Source of the DNA: Desulfovibrio sp.
GTDB lineage: Bacteria; Desulfobacterota; Desulfovibrionia; Desulfovibrionales; Desulfovibrionaceae
Reading direction: 5' to 3'
DNA: 5,288 nucleotides
Assembly (NCBI GenBank): GCA_003525525.1
Contig: DQED01000002.1
Coordinates: 1-5,288 of the forward strand
Shown: positions 759-5,288 of the stretch, piece by piece
How positions within the stretch are numbered: position 1 is the first letter of the stretch
How the letters are laid out: each line of letters starts with the position of its first letter
Program-made: the position numbers and the translations under genes
The notes under the pieces: generated by a model
What the model was told of the DNA's origin: nothing
The model's input: only the letters and a program-made list of their open reading frames with translations
The model's database searches: none

Positions 759-786
759 TTGCCATCACGGCACAAATCCGTAAAAT
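759..786 (+). promoter_or_regulatory. Predicted sigma70-type promoter of the amidoligase operon
   Basis: TTGCCA at 759-764 (5 of 6 matches to TTGACA) and TAAAAT at 781-786 (5 of 6 matches to TATAAT) are separated by 16 bp. This lies in the only conspicuously AT-richer stretch between fliM and the next gene. Transcription would begin near 793, giving a leader of about 55 nt to the ATG at 849 or about 30 nt to the GTG at 822. The position fits a promoter serving all four downstream overlapping genes. It is predicted from sequence only. Confidence 0.6.
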
Positions 787-848: not shown

Positions 849-1616
849 ATGCTCGACATACCCATCGGGGCCCAGCCCGACGACACCACCTGCGGCCCCA
901 CCTGCCTGCAAGCCATCTACCGCTATTACGGCGACGACGTGTCCCTGTCCTCGGTCATCGCCGAGACCACGACTTTGCCCGGCGGCGGCACGCTGGCCGC
1001 CTGGCTCGGTTGCCACGCCCTGCGCCGGGGCTATGCGGCGAGGCTTTACACCTTTGACCTGACCGTCTTCGACATCACGTGGTTCAACGGCACGCACGGC
1101 GTCGACCTCGCCGACAAGCTGGCCCGCCAGCGCCGCGTGAAGCGCAGTTCGCGGCTGCAAGCCACCACCGACGCCATGCTGGATTTCCTGCGCCAGGGCG
1201 GCGAGGTCCGTTTCGAGGACCTCACCGCCGGGCTCATCCGCGACATCCTCAAGCGCGACCGGCCCATCCTGGCCGGGCTTTCCGCCACCTACCTCTACCG
1301 CACCGCGCGCGAACGCGACGACGCGGACGGCAGGACGGTCTACGACGACCTGCGTGGCGAGCCCTCCGGGCATTTCGTGGTCATCGGCGGCTACGACCGG
1401 GAAAACCGCACCGCACACATCGCCGATCCGCTGTTGCCCAATCCCATCAGCGAGGGCCAGTACTACGAAGTGACGCTCAACCACCTCGTCTGCGCCGTCA
1501 TGCTCGGCATCATCACCCGTGACGCCAACCTGCTCGTGCTCTCGCCCCGCAAGAACGCCGCGCCCAAGGGCGGCAAAAAAGGAGCCTCCTCTCGTGTCCG
1601 TTCTGGTGGTCATTGA
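849..1616 (+). CDS. C39-like (papain-fold) cysteine peptidase, first gene of amidoligase operon
   Basis: Predicted cytoplasmic cysteine peptidase of 255 residues. The N-terminus carries the C39-type active site: Gln9 (oxyanion hole) six residues before Cys15 in AQPDDTTCGPTCLQAIYRYYGD. The catalytic His and Asp are likely His175 (SGHFVVIGGYD) and Asp193 (AHIADPL). There is no signal peptide, membrane segment or ABC-transporter domain, unlike bacteriocin-exporter C39 proteins, so it probably works on a product or protein of the same pathway. The last 20 or so residues form a basic, Gly/Lys/Ser-rich tail. The start is uncertain: in-frame choices are GTG 822, GTG 840 and ATG 849, none with a good Shine-Dalgarno. 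I chose ATG 849 because the conserved core begins there and the codons before it (ATA, GTT) are unlike the rest of the gene; GTG 822 would give 264 residues. It overlaps the ATP-grasp gene by 23 bp. Proteolysis is inferred; a transpeptidase role is possible. Confidence 0.8.
   Translation: MLDIPIGAQPDDTTCGPTCLQAIYRYYGDDVSLSSVIAETTTLPGGGTLAAWLGCHALRRGYAARLYTFDLTVFDITWFNGTHGVDLADKLARQRRVKRSSRLQATTDAMLDFLRQGGEVRFEDLTAGLIRDILKRDRPILAGLSATYLYRTARERDDADGRTVYDDLRGEPSGHFVVIGGYDRENRTAHIADPLLPNPISEGQYYEVTLNHLVCAVMLGIITRDANLLVLSPRKNAAPKGGKKGASSRVRSGGH
1579..1584 (+). promoter_or_regulatory. Shine-Dalgarno that sets the GTG start of the ATP-grasp gene
   Basis: AAGGAG lies 9 nt before the GTG at 1594, inside the end of the peptidase gene. 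It supports GTG 1594 over the upstream in-frame ATG at 1519, which would add 25 Arg/Pro-rich residues that look like out-of-frame translation of the peptidase gene. The sequence AGGAGCCTCCT (1580-1590) is also self-complementary. Confidence 0.75.
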
Positions 1617-3063
1617 AAACCCCGAGGACTGTTCCCTGGTTTTTTCCGGCGTGGAGCCGGTTGCGGCCCGGGCCTATCTCACCGACGAAACCTTCACCGG
1701 CCTCCGCGGCGTCAAGATCATCAACATCTGCCGCTCCTACCGTTACCAATCCATGGGCTACTACGTGTCGCTTCTGGCCGAGGCGCGCGGACACAAGCCC
1801 GTGCCCTCCATAACGGCCATCCAGGACATGAAGTCCATAGGCATCATCCGCCTCGCCTCCGACGAACTCGAGGAGGTGATGGCCAAGGCCCTGGCCGAAC
1901 ATCTACCAGAGAAACTGAGCTTTTCCGCTTACTTCGGAAAAACTCCTGAAAAAGGCCTCGAACAGCTGGCCTCGCGGCTGTTCAAGCTCTTCCCGTCGCC
2001 GTTCCTGCGCGCCGACCTGTCGTTTCAAAACGGCTGGCAGCTGCAAAACGTCTCGCCGCTGTCGGTCAAGGACATTCCGCCCGAGGAGCGCGACTTCGCG
2101 GAATCCGTGTCCACGGAGTATTTCGCCGGCAAAAAGCTCATCATCCCCAAGCGGCCCGTGTCCCGCTACGACATCGCCATCCTGCACGATCCCGAGGAGA
2201 CGCGGCCCCCGTCGAACGCCAAGGCCCTCAAGCGCTTCGTCAAAGCCGCCGAAACCCTCGGCGTCGGCGTGGAACTCATCACCCGCGAGGATTCCAACCG
2301 CCTGTCGGAATTCGACGCGCTTTTCATCCGCGAAACGACCAACGTGGACCACCATACCTACCGCATGGCGCGCAAGGCCATGGCCGAAGGCCTCGTGGTC
2401 ATCGACGACCCGGAATCGATCCTGCGCTGCTCCAACAAGGTCTATCTGGCCGAACTGATGGCGCGCCACAAGATTCCGGCCCCGCGCACGGTCATCGCCC
2501 ACTGCAAGAACATCGACCACATCCTGGAGGAACTGCCCCTGCCGTGCGTGCTCAAGCAGCCCGACAGCGCCTTTTCCCAGGGCGTGGTGCTCGTGCGCGA
2601 ATCCGACGCCCTGGTCAGCGAAGCCCGGCGGCTCCTCGCCAAATCCGACCTGGTCATCGCCCAGGAATACCTGCCTTCGGATTTCGACTGGCGCATTGGC
2701 ATCCTCGACCGCCGGCCGCTTTTCGCCTGCAAGTACTTCATGGCCGCCGGCCACTGGCAGATTTTGCGCAAGGGCAAGAGCGGCAAGGACATCTACGGCC
2801 GCGTGGAGACCCTGCCCGTGGGCAAGATCCCCAGGAAGGTCGTTTCCACGGCGCTCAAGGCCGCCGACGCCATCGGCGACGGCCTCTACGGCGTGGACCT
2901 CAAGCAGGTGGGCAACAAGGTCTACGTCATCGAGGTCAACGACAACCCCAACATCGACGCCGGCTTCGAGGACGAAGTCCTCCAGGACGAGCTGTACCTT
3001 CGCGTGGTGGAAGTGTTTCTCAAACGCATCGAACGCCGCAAAACCGGGAGCCTCAACATATGA
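1594..3063 (+). CDS. RimK-like ATP-grasp amidoligase with N-terminal RLAN-type domain
   Basis: Predicted ATP-dependent carboxylate-amine ligase of 489 residues starting at GTG. ATP-grasp enzymes of the RimK type activate a carboxylate as acyl-phosphate and join it to an amine, for example adding glutamate or making short peptides. Residues about 1-185 form an extra alpha/beta domain with the phrase CRSYRYQSMGYYVSLLAE (46-63), which matches my recollection of the RLAN domain found before RimK-like ligases. Residues about 190-480 are the ATP-grasp part: Lys321 in CVLKQPDSAFSQGV (ATP-binding lysine and loop), Glu358 in AQEYLP, Arg367 in DWRIGILD, Asp435 in YGVDLK, and the metal-binding Glu447/Asn449 in IEVNDNPN. 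All key residues are present, so it should be active. RimK proper is about 300 residues, so the N-terminal domain accounts for the size. It overlaps the peptidase gene by 23 bp and the GCS2 gene by 4 bp (ATGA), suggesting coupled translation. The substrates are unknown. Confidence 0.88.
   Translation: MSVLVVIENPEDCSLVFSGVEPVAARAYLTDETFTGLRGVKIINICRSYRYQSMGYYVSLLAEARGHKPVPSITAIQDMKSIGIIRLASDELEEVMAKALAEHLPEKLSFSAYFGKTPEKGLEQLASRLFKLFPSPFLRADLSFQNGWQLQNVSPLSVKDIPPEERDFAESVSTEYFAGKKLIIPKRPVSRYDIAILHDPEETRPPSNAKALKRFVKAAETLGVGVELITREDSNRLSEFDALFIRETTNVDHHTYRMARKAMAEGLVVIDDPESILRCSNKVYLAELMARHKIPAPRTVIAHCKNIDHILEELPLPCVLKQPDSAFSQGVVLVRESDALVSEARRLLAKSDLVIAQEYLPSDFDWRIGILDRRPLFACKYFMAAGHWQILRKGKSGKDIYGRVETLPVGKIPRKVVSTALKAADAIGDGLYGVDLKQVGNKVYVIEVNDNPNIDAGFEDEVLQDELYLRVVEVFLKRIERRKTGSLNI
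3046..3050 (+). promoter_or_regulatory. Shine-Dalgarno for the GCS2-family gene
   Basis: GGGAG lies 9 nt before the ATG at 3060, within the last codons of the ATP-grasp gene. Together with the ATGA stop/start overlap it fixes the start of the GCS2-family gene and argues that ribosomes reinitiate there. Confidence 0.65.
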
Positions 3064-4325
3064 GCCGGGCCAGACCGCTTTTTTCCGCCTACGGCATCGA
3101 AATCGAATACATGATCGTGGACCGGGGCACGCTTCGCGTGCTGCCCGTGGCCGACAAGCTGCTTGCCGCCGCCGCCCGCAAGGAAGGCGTCGCGGACGTC
3201 GACATGGGCGCGCTCACCTGGTCCAACGAACTCGTCAACCACGTGCTGGAGATGAAGGTCACAAAGCCCGCCAAAAGCCTGGTCGGCCTGGCCGACCAGT
3301 TCGCCGAGAGCGTGGCCATGGCCGACGCGCTGCTCGCGCCCCTAAACGGGCGGCTCATGCCCACGGGCGCGCACCCGTTCATGAATCCCCAGTCCGAAAC
3401 CGTGCTCTGGCCCCACGAATACGGCGAGATCTACAAGGCCTTCGACGCCGTCTTCGACTGCAAGGGGCACGGCTGGTCCAACCTGCAAAGCATGCACGTG
3501 AACCTCCCCTTTCGCGGGGACGAGGAATTCGCCCGGCTGCACGCCGCCATCCGGGTGCTGCTGCCCATCATGCCGGCCCTGGCCGCGTCCACGCCGCTGC
3601 TCGACGGCAAGGCGACCGGGTTCCTCGACGCGCGCATGGAGCAGTATTCCCACAACGCCGCGCGCGTGCCCTCGGTCATGGCCGCCGTCGTTCCCGAGGA
3701 CGTCTCCTCGGAACAGGAATACCGCGAACGCATCCTCGCGCCCATGTACCGGGACATCGCGCCGCTCGACCCGGCCGGCGTGCTCCAGGACGAGTTCCTG
3801 AACGCCCGGGGGGCCATCGCCCGCTTCGACCGGTCCACCATCGAGATCCGCGTCCTCGACACCCAGGAATGCCCCTGCGCCGACCTGGCCCTGGCCGGCG
3901 TGCTCACGGCGGCGCTCAAGGGCCTCGTGGAGGAGCGCTGGTCCACCTACGCGGAGCAGAAGGCCTGGGACACGCGGGAACTGGCCACCGTGTTCCAGAA
4001 CACCATCCGCAACGCCGGCCGCACCATGGTGCCCCAGAAGTACGCCAAGCTTTTCGGGGTCTACGCGCCCTCGAACATCCCGGCCCGCGTCATCTGGCGG
4101 CGGCTGACCCACAGTTGCCTGCCGGCCATGGACTACGACCCGGCCTGGGACAAACCGCTGCCCGTGCTCGTGGACCAGTCGAGCCTGGCCCGGCGCATCC
4201 TGGCCGCGCTCGATGGCGACCTGCGGCCCGTCAACATCCGCGGCGTCTACGAAAGGCTGTGCGACTGCCTGGAAAAAAACGAGCCGTTCAATGTCGGGCT
4301 GCTGGGCGCCGCTTATTACCTGTGA
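3060..4325 (+). CDS. GCS2-family carboxylate-amine ligase (glutamate-cysteine ligase-like)
   Basis: Predicted amide-forming ligase of the glutamate-cysteine ligase type 2 (GCS2/YbdK-like) family, 421 residues, with a glutamine-synthetase-like fold. Such enzymes couple the gamma-carboxyl of glutamate or a similar acid to an amine using ATP. Visible family motifs are GIEIEYM (12-18; Glu14 and Glu16 probable Mg-ATP ligands), SNELVNHVLEMK (55-66; Glu57, Glu64), TGAHPFMNP (102-110), QSMHVNLPF (143-151; His146, Asn148) and STIEIRVLDTQECPCADLAL (259-278; Arg264). Length is somewhat above the YbdK type (about 370). The start is the ATG overlapping the previous stop as ATGA; the final 35 bp are shared with the next gene in another frame. 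Glutathione synthesis is an obvious alternative, with the ATP-grasp enzyme as second ligase. However, the peptidase and FGase partners and the RLAN-type ligase point away from the usual gshA/gshB pair, so I do not name it gshA. Confidence 0.88.
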   Translation: MSRARPLFSAYGIEIEYMIVDRGTLRVLPVADKLLAAAARKEGVADVDMGALTWSNELVNHVLEMKVTKPAKSLVGLADQFAESVAMADALLAPLNGRLMPTGAHPFMNPQSETVLWPHEYGEIYKAFDAVFDCKGHGWSNLQSMHVNLPFRGDEEFARLHAAIRVLLPIMPALAASTPLLDGKATGFLDARMEQYSHNAARVPSVMAAVVPEDVSSEQEYRERILAPMYRDIAPLDPAGVLQDEFLNARGAIARFDRSTIEIRVLDTQECPCADLALAGVLTAALKGLVEERWSTYAEQKAWDTRELATVFQNTIRNAGRTMVPQKYAKLFGVYAPSNIPARVIWRRLTHSCLPAMDYDPAWDKPLPVLVDQSSLARRILAALDGDLRPVNIRGVYERLCDCLEKNEPFNVGLLGAAYYL

Positions 4326-5025
4326 GCACGCCGGCAACGCCGTGCCGCCCGAATACCTTCCGCTTTTTGCCGGGAGGGAGGGCCTGCTCGCCTCGCACCG
4401 CGGCTTCGACCTCGGGGCGCTGGCTACTGCCGCATCCCTCGCCCGGGCGGCCGGCGCGCCGCTTTTGTCCGTGGCATTTACGCGCCTGCTTGCCGACCAC
4501 AACCGCAGCATCGGCCATCCCCGCCTTTTTTCGGACATCACCAAACCCCTTCCCCGCCGGACCCGCCAAGAAATCCTCGCGGCCTGCTACGTTCCCCACC
4601 GCGAGGCCGTGATCGCCAAGGTCACTGCGCTTCGCGCCACAGGCAGGCGCGTGCTGCACATCGCCAGCCACAGTTTCACGCCGCGCCTGGGCGATGTCGT
4701 GCGCCACTGCGACGTGGGCTTTCTCTACGACCCGAAGCGTGCCGTGGAAAAGGCGTTTTGCAGCCGGTGGCTTCGCGAATTGCGCTGCCTGGACGGCGAT
4801 CTCATCCTGCGGCGCAACTATCCCTATCGCGGGGTGACGGACGGCCTGGTCACGGTCCTTCGCCGCCGCTTCGGCGAGGCCTATGCCGGCATGGAGCTCG
4901 AAGTGAACCAGCGCTTCGCCCGGGGCAGCGACGAAGCGCTCGCGAGCATCAACGAACATCTGGCCGAAGCGCTCCTGCGGGCCATGGGCCGGGAGACCGG
5001 CTGCCTGACGCCCGAAAAGGCCTGA
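4291..5025 (+). CDS. N-formylglutamate amidohydrolase-family protein
   Basis: Predicted hydrolase of the FGase family, 244 residues. Known members (histidine degradation) split N-formylglutamate into formate and glutamate. Motifs: ITCEHAGN (9-16), SHRGFDLGA (35-43), ADHNRS (68-73), HIASHSFTP (123-131) and MELEVNQ (201-207). These include the acidic and histidine residues expected at a metal-dependent active site. No hut genes are nearby, so here it more likely removes a formyl or other acyl/aminoacyl group from a product of the two ligases; this is inference from context. The start is ATG 4291, the only suitable codon close before the first conserved strand. It lies inside the GCS2 gene, giving a 35-bp overlap, with only a weak GAG 7 nt upstream, so translation probably depends on that of the gene before it. 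The upstream ATG at 4213 would add 26 residues typical of out-of-frame translation. The gene ends in TGA 10 bp from a convergent gene. Confidence 0.85.
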   Translation: MSGCWAPLITCEHAGNAVPPEYLPLFAGREGLLASHRGFDLGALATAASLARAAGAPLLSVAFTRLLADHNRSIGHPRLFSDITKPLPRRTRQEILAACYVPHREAVIAKVTALRATGRRVLHIASHSFTPRLGDVVRHCDVGFLYDPKRAVEKAFCSRWLRELRCLDGDLILRRNYPYRGVTDGLVTVLRRRFGEAYAGMELEVNQRFARGSDEALASINEHLAEALLRAMGRETGCLTPEKA

Positions 5026-5035
5026 ACACGCGGCG

Positions 5036-5288
5036 TTACGAACCGGCCCCAGCGACCGGGCCGCGCCCCTTGAAAAGGGTCAGGGCATTGCGTTCGCGCA
5101 CGGCCTCGAACAGCTGGCGCAGAAGCGGCAGGAAGGGACTCTCCCCGGCAGGACGGCCGTTCAGGGTCGCAACGGCCACGCGGGGTTCGGGCAGGATGCG
5201 CCGGGTAAGCAGGTTTTCAAGCGGCGCGAGCGCCGCCGGCAAGGCCGGATCGTCCGGGGCAAGGACCGTGTCGATGCGCCCGCCGCCG
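5036..5288 (-). CDS. C-terminal fragment of convergent gene, possibly LysR-type regulator
   Basis: The minus-strand frame is open from the right edge of the window to a TAA at 5038-5036, giving 83 C-terminal residues. Codon third positions are strongly G/C, so it is very likely coding, and its true start lies beyond the window. The TTG at 5242 is not a convincing start because the frame continues upstream with similar codon use. The fragment contains DTVLAPDDPALPAALAPL, then LLTRRILPEPRVAVATLNGR and SPFLPLLRQLFEAV. The last pattern (a strand followed by a helix of the form FLxLLR) resembles the end of the effector-binding domain of LysR-family regulators, but the match is weak and from memory. 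If it is a regulator it could act on the adjacent operon, although LysR genes are more often divergent from their targets. Its end converges on the FGase gene with a 10-bp gap. Confidence 0.6.
   Translation of the reverse strand, partial: GGGRIDTVLAPDDPALPAALAPLENLLTRRILPEPRVAVATLNGRPAGESPFLPLLRQLFEAVRERNALTLFKGRGPVAGAGS

Follow-up and report, generated by a model that had tools for sequence, protein, structure and literature searches.

Operons in which ATP-grasp ligases are joined either by COOH-NH2 ligases or by GNAT enzymes were described by Iyer et al. (2009, Mol Biosyst 5:1636), as relayed in the citing passage of PMC4431377, which itself suggests a GNAT-derived acyl cap for other ATP-grasp families. 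A passage of PMC10318531 refers to the 2009 work for fusions between DUF3335 and GNAT domains. The general class to which our locus belongs had thus already been proposed by comparative genomics, as the original prediction stated, to the extent that these two citing papers convey it. Relative to the 2009 operons, which are known to us through the citing papers, the present analysis contributes a counted swap of ligase partners and the reading of one half of the ligase as a decayed ATP-grasp. A system of related logic is the NAGGN osmolyte operon (asnO-ngg-peptidase), in which, according to the relevant passage of PMC8070244, Ngg acetylates glutamine and joins a second glutamine, with a peptidase gene in the same operon. 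Glutathione synthesis, carried out by a GCS2-type GshA and by GshB, resembles our locus in pairing GCS2 with a following ATP-grasp ligase, that is, a glutamyl cap with an ATP-grasp-made bond. Finally, LysX/ArgX and RimK share the live ATP-grasp fold of the ligase encoded here. To our knowledge, LysX/ArgX and RimK have neither an RLAN half nor a GCS2 partner.

The window, by which we mean the whole 5,288-nucleotide stretch of DNA that was analyzed, derives from a bacterium related to Solidesulfovibrio. It harbors four intact, overlapping plus-strand genes without internal stops, in the order C39-like peptidase, RLAN-RimK ATP-grasp ligase, GCS2 ligase, and FGase-like hydrolase:

759..786, plus strand, promoter-like site TTGCCA-16-TAAAAT 5' of the operon (consensus match only)
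849..1616, plus strand, C39-like (papain-fold) cysteine peptidase (PF13529 and PF03412)
1594..3063, plus strand, RLAN-RimK ATP-grasp ligase of 489 aa (PF14401 and PF08443)
1594..2160, plus strand, RLAN domain, predicted decayed ATP-grasp without the nucleotide-binding subdomain
2161..3060, plus strand, live ATP-grasp ligase domain of the ArgX/LysX/RimK type
3060..4325, plus strand, GCS2 family carboxylate-amine ligase (PF04107; start ATG 3060)
4291..5025, plus strand, FGase-like (N-formylglutamate amidohydrolase family) hydrolase, optional member (PF05013; start ATG 4291)

The promoter-like site matches 10 of 12 consensus positions and occurs once in the window, compared with a mean of 0.1 in shuffled sequences. 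The peptidase could start at ATG 849 or GTG 822, and no signal peptide was seen on it by eye. The ligase starts at GTG 1594, with GGAG nine bases 5' of it, and homologues of 489 aa support the length of the gene. The uninterrupted order of the four families and their junctions, as first proposed, are exact in the sequence, with overlaps of 23 bp (peptidase end 1616, ligase GTG 1594), 4 bp (ligase end 3063, GCS2 ATG 3060), and 35 bp (GCS2 end 4325, FGase ATG 4291), and all four assignments lie above the Pfam gathering scores. The peptidase scores 40.1 bits against PF13529 (gathering 24) and 30 bits, also above gathering, against PF03412. The ligase combines PF14401 (157 bits versus 25) and PF08443 (40 bits versus 21) in one protein; GCS2 scores 91.9 bits against PF04107 (cut-off 21) and the predicted FGase-like hydrolase 66.1 bits against PF05013 (cut-off 28.9). 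The latter also matches 2odf (E 2e-15), and the GCS2 profile matches YbdK (1r8g) at E 5e-4 and a plant glutamate-cysteine ligase at E 1e-3. The literature matches listed for the set C39-RLAN-GCS2-FGase included none that describes it.

The key catalytic residues appear intact, as anticipated, since the expected residues are at least 95% conserved among homologues of all four proteins. These are the C39 Gln/Cys/His/Asp-Pro site (85 homologue rows), E14, E16, H146, N148, R192, E262, and R264 of GCS2 (83 rows), the FGase C-E-H residues together with H116 and H120 (46 rows), and K282, K321, R367, E447, and N449 of the ATP-grasp (92 rows). Their catalytic roles are presumed from family knowledge. 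The ligase falls well short of the NCBIfam cut-offs that define S6-modifying RimK, LysX, and ArgX (PRK10446, 28.7 versus 331; LysX_arch, 57.6 versus 275.6; rimK_fam, 64 versus 143), and the NAGGN synthetase model TIGR03103 is absent from its matches up to E 0.001.

The core of the operon is widespread. Of the 109 distinct loci that remain after removal of the duplicates L083, L111, and L079 (copies of L050, L040, and L060, respectively), 95 have the genes in the order C39-RLAN-GCS2, which is far beyond chance. Among the best-matching loci outside the genus, 69 core rows span 15 named phyla, with 3 of the 69 unassigned. The 80 loci outside the genus are the best matches to the type I (GCS2-form) profile among at least 560 relatives and are therefore biased to type I; samples of RLAN-bearing genomes from the window's own phylum (17 of 395 genomes), gammaproteobacteria (81 of 369), Bacteroidota (35 of 296), and Planctomycetota (75 of 294) are free of this bias. 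Departures from the core include four loci that have C39 with GCS2 undetected; of these, two (L089 and L139) run out within 100 bases of the ligase. Another three carry GCS2 with C39 undetected, and the ligase stands alone in 4 of the 80 outside-genus loci (L090, L114, L115, and L116). Moreover, among 20 variants hand-picked as odd (17 Planctomycetota and 3 Bacteroidota), 5 planctomycete loci encode RLAN, ATP-grasp, and GCS2 as a single ORF. C39-RLAN-GCS2 is thus a real, portable module. That the genes act as one functional unit, as first suggested, is borne out by the order kept over 15 named phyla, by the five fusions, and by flanks that are not conserved.

The feared rarity of shared occurrence did not materialize, and each of the 13 other genomes of the window's genus carries all four genes. 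However, the fourth gene is not a fixed member. FGase is found in 59 of 95 core loci and was not found in 36, a few of which end at a contig edge; the strict unit is therefore three genes rather than the four originally envisaged, and cap removal by FGase cannot be essential. As for a stand-in, the next genes 3' of GCS2, listed for 28 of 29 loci without FGase, look unrelated to one another by eye. One convergent AstE-like gene, named by eye, was seen in L068.

Comparison of the partners of the RLAN ligase revealed a sharp alternation. Across 178 loci, pooled from sets with differing thresholds, the partner is GCS2 in 83 and a RimI-like acetyltransferase in 86, with neither in 9 and both in none. 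When only the 81 gammaproteobacterial loci are counted, the exclusion persists (Fisher p = 7e-12); this set covers 81 of 81 loci, L173 with short flanks. For Bacteroidota and Planctomycetota, 60 loci were compared, the best-scoring 30 of each from 35 and 75 carriers, respectively, with about 1.5 kb shown per side. On a tree of 149 ligases, a single change suffices to account for the switch. The acetyltransferase, detected with a profile built from five full acetyltransferase-C39 proteins, has RimI as its best model in all seven proteins scanned, two of them above cut-off. Acetyltransferases had been named beforehand as possible associated genes; they do lie beside the same ligase in other lineages, but in place of GCS2 rather than with it. 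The peptidase domains of type II, the acetyltransferase form, are homologues of the window C39 with catalytic residues aligned (E 9e-9). Only 8 of 40 gammaproteobacterial ligases have nearby an M14 or DUF2817 peptidase, the kind of enzyme that would be the counterpart of FGase, a point against the capped-peptide reading given below; zinc peptidases were therefore rejected as constant companions of the acetyltransferase. Because the acetyltransferase replaces GCS2, and each is fused to the ligase in some bacteria, GCS2 likely serves to cap an amine, the role that the acetyltransferase would have in its place. In L065, L340, and L341 the acetyltransferase, RLAN, and ATP-grasp follow one another in one frame, a frame that resembles Ngg, which we take to contain an ATP-grasp; we know of no RLAN domain in Ngg. 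The layout is reminiscent of that for NAGGN, an acetyl-capped osmolyte dipeptide (acetyltransferase, ATP-grasp, and peptidase), but the operon studied here has GCS2 rather than an acetyltransferase, a papain-fold peptidase, and no AsnO.

The RLAN domain is probably a decayed second ATP-grasp, as judged from predicted folds. Folded alone, it resembles the whole ATP-grasp of ArgX, LysX, and RimK minus the nucleotide-binding subdomain, and the match spans most of the domain and stands above unrelated rows. ArgX, LysX, and RimK are also the closest folds to the live ATP-grasp domain. Profile comparison of the two ligase halves was not significant. The long RLAN form aligned with ATP-grasp in the right register over 94 columns, but this too fell short of significance, with 4 of 60 column-shuffled controls scoring higher; its sole PDB match is an ATP-grasp ligase, at a weak E of 0.76. 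None of the literature matches listed dealt with PF14401, with RLAN as a named domain, or with a decayed ATP-grasp.

Collectively, we favor, with a probability of roughly 45%, the reading that the operon encodes an intracellular pathway that makes and degrades a small nonribosomal peptide, likely glutamyl-capped on its amine end. GCS2 would join glutamate to an amine, a step that the acetyltransferase of the sister systems would perform with an acetyl cap, and the RLAN ligase would use its one live ATP-grasp to couple a free carboxylate to an amino acid, in the manner of ArgX, LysX, and RimK. The likely decayed RLAN half may be kept to hold substrate or to shape the enzyme. The papain-fold peptidase would cleave the bond made by the ligase, and the FGase-like enzyme would take off the acyl cap, so that together they could empty the pool again. 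A salvage role, in which amino acids from modified glutamate compounds are freed by the hydrolases and taken back by the ligases without build-up of a product, would suit the FGase-family enzyme within the operon but seems improbable, as the constant part is two ATP-dependent ligase families and FGase is optional.

Glutathione synthesis likewise pairs GCS2 with an ATP-grasp ligase, and a canonical glutathione synthetase is over cut-off in 0 of 23 carriers from the window's own phylum sample, which would suit glutathione or a glutathione-like thiol as the product. However, both enzymes score far below the glutathione equivalog cut-offs (TIGR01380, 21.6 versus 299; TIGR02048, 34 versus 249), and the sister systems carry an acetyltransferase in place of GCS2. 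In addition, 7 of 37 carriers encode a separate canonical synthetase, over cut-off, and the product is therefore not simply glutathione, the outcome that the original prediction had named as fatal to its proposal; we give a product of this kind little chance.

The main rival, which we consider somewhat unlikely, is reversible protein modification. Here the RLAN ligase would extend a conserved protein at its C terminus by adding amino acids, an N-terminal or side-chain amine would be capped by GCS2 (or by the RimI-like enzyme), and the peptidase together with FGase would undo these changes. The ligase's nearest folds, ArgX, LysX, and RimK, act on proteins (LysW and S6), and RimI is a protein acetyltransferase, so that protein tagging fits these points as well and they count against a capped peptide. 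Against protein modification, flank and small-ORF comparisons showed no conserved substrate gene beside the operon, and the module is patchy (RLAN in 17 of 395 genomes of the phylum) yet spans many phyla, a pattern that favors a portable pathway acting on common metabolites, unless the target is universal.

Among the neighbor sets listed, no flanking gene holds a fixed place beside the module. The two broad sets, of 13 and 10 loci outside the genus, lie at scattered distances on both strands, that of 10 resembling ABC ATPases by eye, and the remaining listed sets are small and from close kin; in the window's genus, fliM lies upstream. No upstream ORF is common to the genus and the 80 other loci, and the largest shared sets of precursor-like small ORFs upstream of C39 comprise four closely related loci. 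A carrier peptide or transporter, suggested earlier as a possible companion, was accordingly absent from any conserved place in these comparisons, and unlike LysX/ArgX systems the module has no small carrier gene as a conserved neighbor 5' of C39. C39 enzymes of ABC exporters cut off leader peptides, as stated in the part of PMC10318531 concerned with them, and C39 could likewise remove the leader of a ribosomally made secreted peptide here. Such maturation is very improbable given the narrow sharing of small ORFs, the scattered ABC-ATPase-like genes, and a window C39 without exporter fusion. A MATCAP (DUF1704) tubulin-type tyrosine carboxypeptidase was rejected as a partner: of 15 carrier genomes, one encodes it, and there it lies on a contig other than that of the operon.

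Returning to the capped-peptide reading, we propose, more tentatively, that the scaffold of live and dead ATP-grasp is the core of an intracellular capped-peptide family in which the cap is swapped by lineage between acetyl (RimI-like) and glutamyl (GCS2), the window representing the glutamyl, glutathione-shaped form, present in at least 15 bacterial phyla. If so, a small-molecule pathway shaped like glutathione synthesis would have lacked an assigned product though its three genes adjoin in many phyla. The finding of a glutamyl ligase where other lineages have an acetyltransferase would direct attention to an amine, and the natural RLAN-GCS2 fusion offers a single protein for assay.

The window is one entire contig (G000:C395) of a genome that is 69.6% complete, and its RLAN ligase shares 92% identity with the Solidesulfovibrio fructosivorans enzyme. 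The four operon genes overlap and lie between the ends of fliM and an Lhr-like helicase gene (assignments by Pfam unless stated).

1-612, 3′ end of fliM, 5′ of the operon
759-786, putative promoter-like site (sequence match)
849-1616, C39-like peptidase
1594-3063, RLAN-RimK ligase
3060-4325, GCS2 ligase
4291-5025, FGase-like hydrolase
5036-5287, Lhr-like helicase gene end, convergent with the operon (named by eye; whole gene present at locus L037)

The four-gene set is a real module. The same order is present in 13 of 13 other sampled genomes of the genus, the active-site residues of the enzymes are conserved in homologue alignments, and median domain-to-domain gaps across the module are 15, 7 and 16 bases. 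The C39-RLAN-GCS2 core is kept in 95 of 109 distinct loci (111 scanned), and 69 core rows, from a best-match set biased to type I (the ligase form with GCS2), span 15 named phyla, with many labels taken from metagenome bins and possibly wrong and three rows lacking a phylum. FGase, however, is found in only 59 of the 95 distinct core loci (57 of 86 core rows having at least 1 kb 3′ of GCS2). Three enzymes thus make up the strict unit, and FGase often joins them. The co-occurrence of all four families in order, which the original prediction proposed as a check, holds for the core and in part for FGase. The core is partial in the other 14 loci: at seven the ligase has neither C39 nor GCS2 beside it (an acetyltransferase is present at three of the seven), four loci lack GCS2 (two are cut by a contig end) and three lack C39. 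Neither GCS2 nor an acetyltransferase was detected near the ligases of L090, L114, L115 and L116, which came from the type I search. In one genome (L066) a broken ligase frame adjoins GCS2 and FGase matches, and a scan of the locus gave no C39 match.

Acetyltransferases, anticipated as associates in other lineages, were indeed found beside the ligase, but they replace GCS2. The RLAN domain is carried by 81 of 369 gammaproteobacterial genomes, with an acetyltransferase within 3.2 kb of the ligase (centre to centre) in 60, GCS2 in 15, neither in six (three cut by a contig end) and both in 0 of 81 (Fisher p = 7e-12 for exclusion). GCS2 and acetyltransferase forms number 14 and 3 among 17 carriers in the window's phylum, 24 and 6 in Bacteroidota (best 30 of 35 carriers), 24 and 4 in Planctomycetota (best 30 of 75, two without a clear partner), and 6 and 13 among 20 further loci picked as odd (one with neither). 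Summed over all 178 loci, GCS2 is present in 83, an acetyltransferase in 86, both in 0 and neither in 9. In a quick tree of 149 ligases, which has some long branches, one change divides 103 GCS2 rows from 37 acetyltransferase rows, with nine rows having neither. RimI was the best acetyltransferase model in 7 of 7 proteins scanned, above cut-off in two. In 52 of the 81 gammaproteobacterial loci the acetyltransferase match continues through a papain-fold domain (DUF3335 by Pfam in 3 of 3 such proteins scanned), and this domain is homologous to the papain domain of the GCS2 form, the Gln, Cys, His and Asp residues of the two aligning.

The strongest sign that GCS2 and the acetyltransferase share one reaction sequence is fusion of the ligase to either partner. 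RLAN, ATP-grasp and GCS2 occupy one frame of ~1000 residues at five planctomycete loci (L322, L323, L324, L326 and L327; domains shown by Pfam for two), and six Bacteroidota loci (among the best 30 of 35), together with L065, L340 and L341, have acetyltransferase-RLAN-ATP-grasp fusions. The RLAN domain itself (window 1594-2160) resembles an ATP-grasp domain from which the nucleotide-binding subdomain has been lost. Stand-alone RLAN proteins adjoin a separate ATP-grasp gene at L328-L339 (Planctomycetota, except L336 from the Bacteroidota sample), all but L328 also having an acetyltransferase gene. The operon class is already known as a prediction, because Iyer et al. 2009, as cited in passages of PMC4431377 and PMC10318531, described operons in which an ATP-grasp ligase is joined by a COOH-NH2 ligase or an acetyltransferase. 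Compared with what those passages say, the present analysis adds the counted partner swap, the fusions and the reading of RLAN as a decayed ATP-grasp.

The original prediction had weighed against itself that the two ligases simply make glutathione. As the sole product this is unlikely, since a canonical glutathione synthetase scores above cut-off in 7 of 37 type I carriers. Within the window's phylum a glutathione-like role is still conceivable, because 0 of 23 carriers from that sample exceed the cut-off, and the match in a Desulfosediminicola genome (G438) is 220 bits, below the cut-off of 299. The closest pathway with an established logic is that for NAGGN, in which Ngg produces an acetyl-capped dipeptide and a peptidase gene lies alongside (PMC8070244); the cap proposed here is a glutamyl group added by GCS2. 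Such a cap in place of the acetyl group would give a glutathione-shaped peptide. Phytochelatin synthase is a papain-fold enzyme acting on gamma-glutamyl peptides. The main rival to a glutamyl-capped small peptide remains protein tagging, because ArgX, LysX, RimK and RimI all act on proteins.

Among the matches listed, no flanking gene holds a fixed position beyond small sets of close kin. In the window, as in the 13 further genomes sampled from the genus, fliM directly precedes the operon, and no upstream ORF is common to the genus and 80 loci outside it. Among 40 gammaproteobacterial loci, a DUF155 (RMND1-like) gene lies within ~3.5 kb of the ligase at six (L206, L213, L210, L178, L182 and L198), and zinc peptidase genes lie near acetyltransferase-type ligases at eight, of DUF2817 type at L179, L187 and L206 and of M14 type at L182, L183, L185, L186 and L198. 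An RLAN ligase annotated as RimK family (L220) is located on a Pseudomonas aeruginosa plasmid, with GCS2 and acetyltransferase absent from the annotated genes within 5 kb on each side. RLAN ligases are also carried on Azospirillum plasmids.
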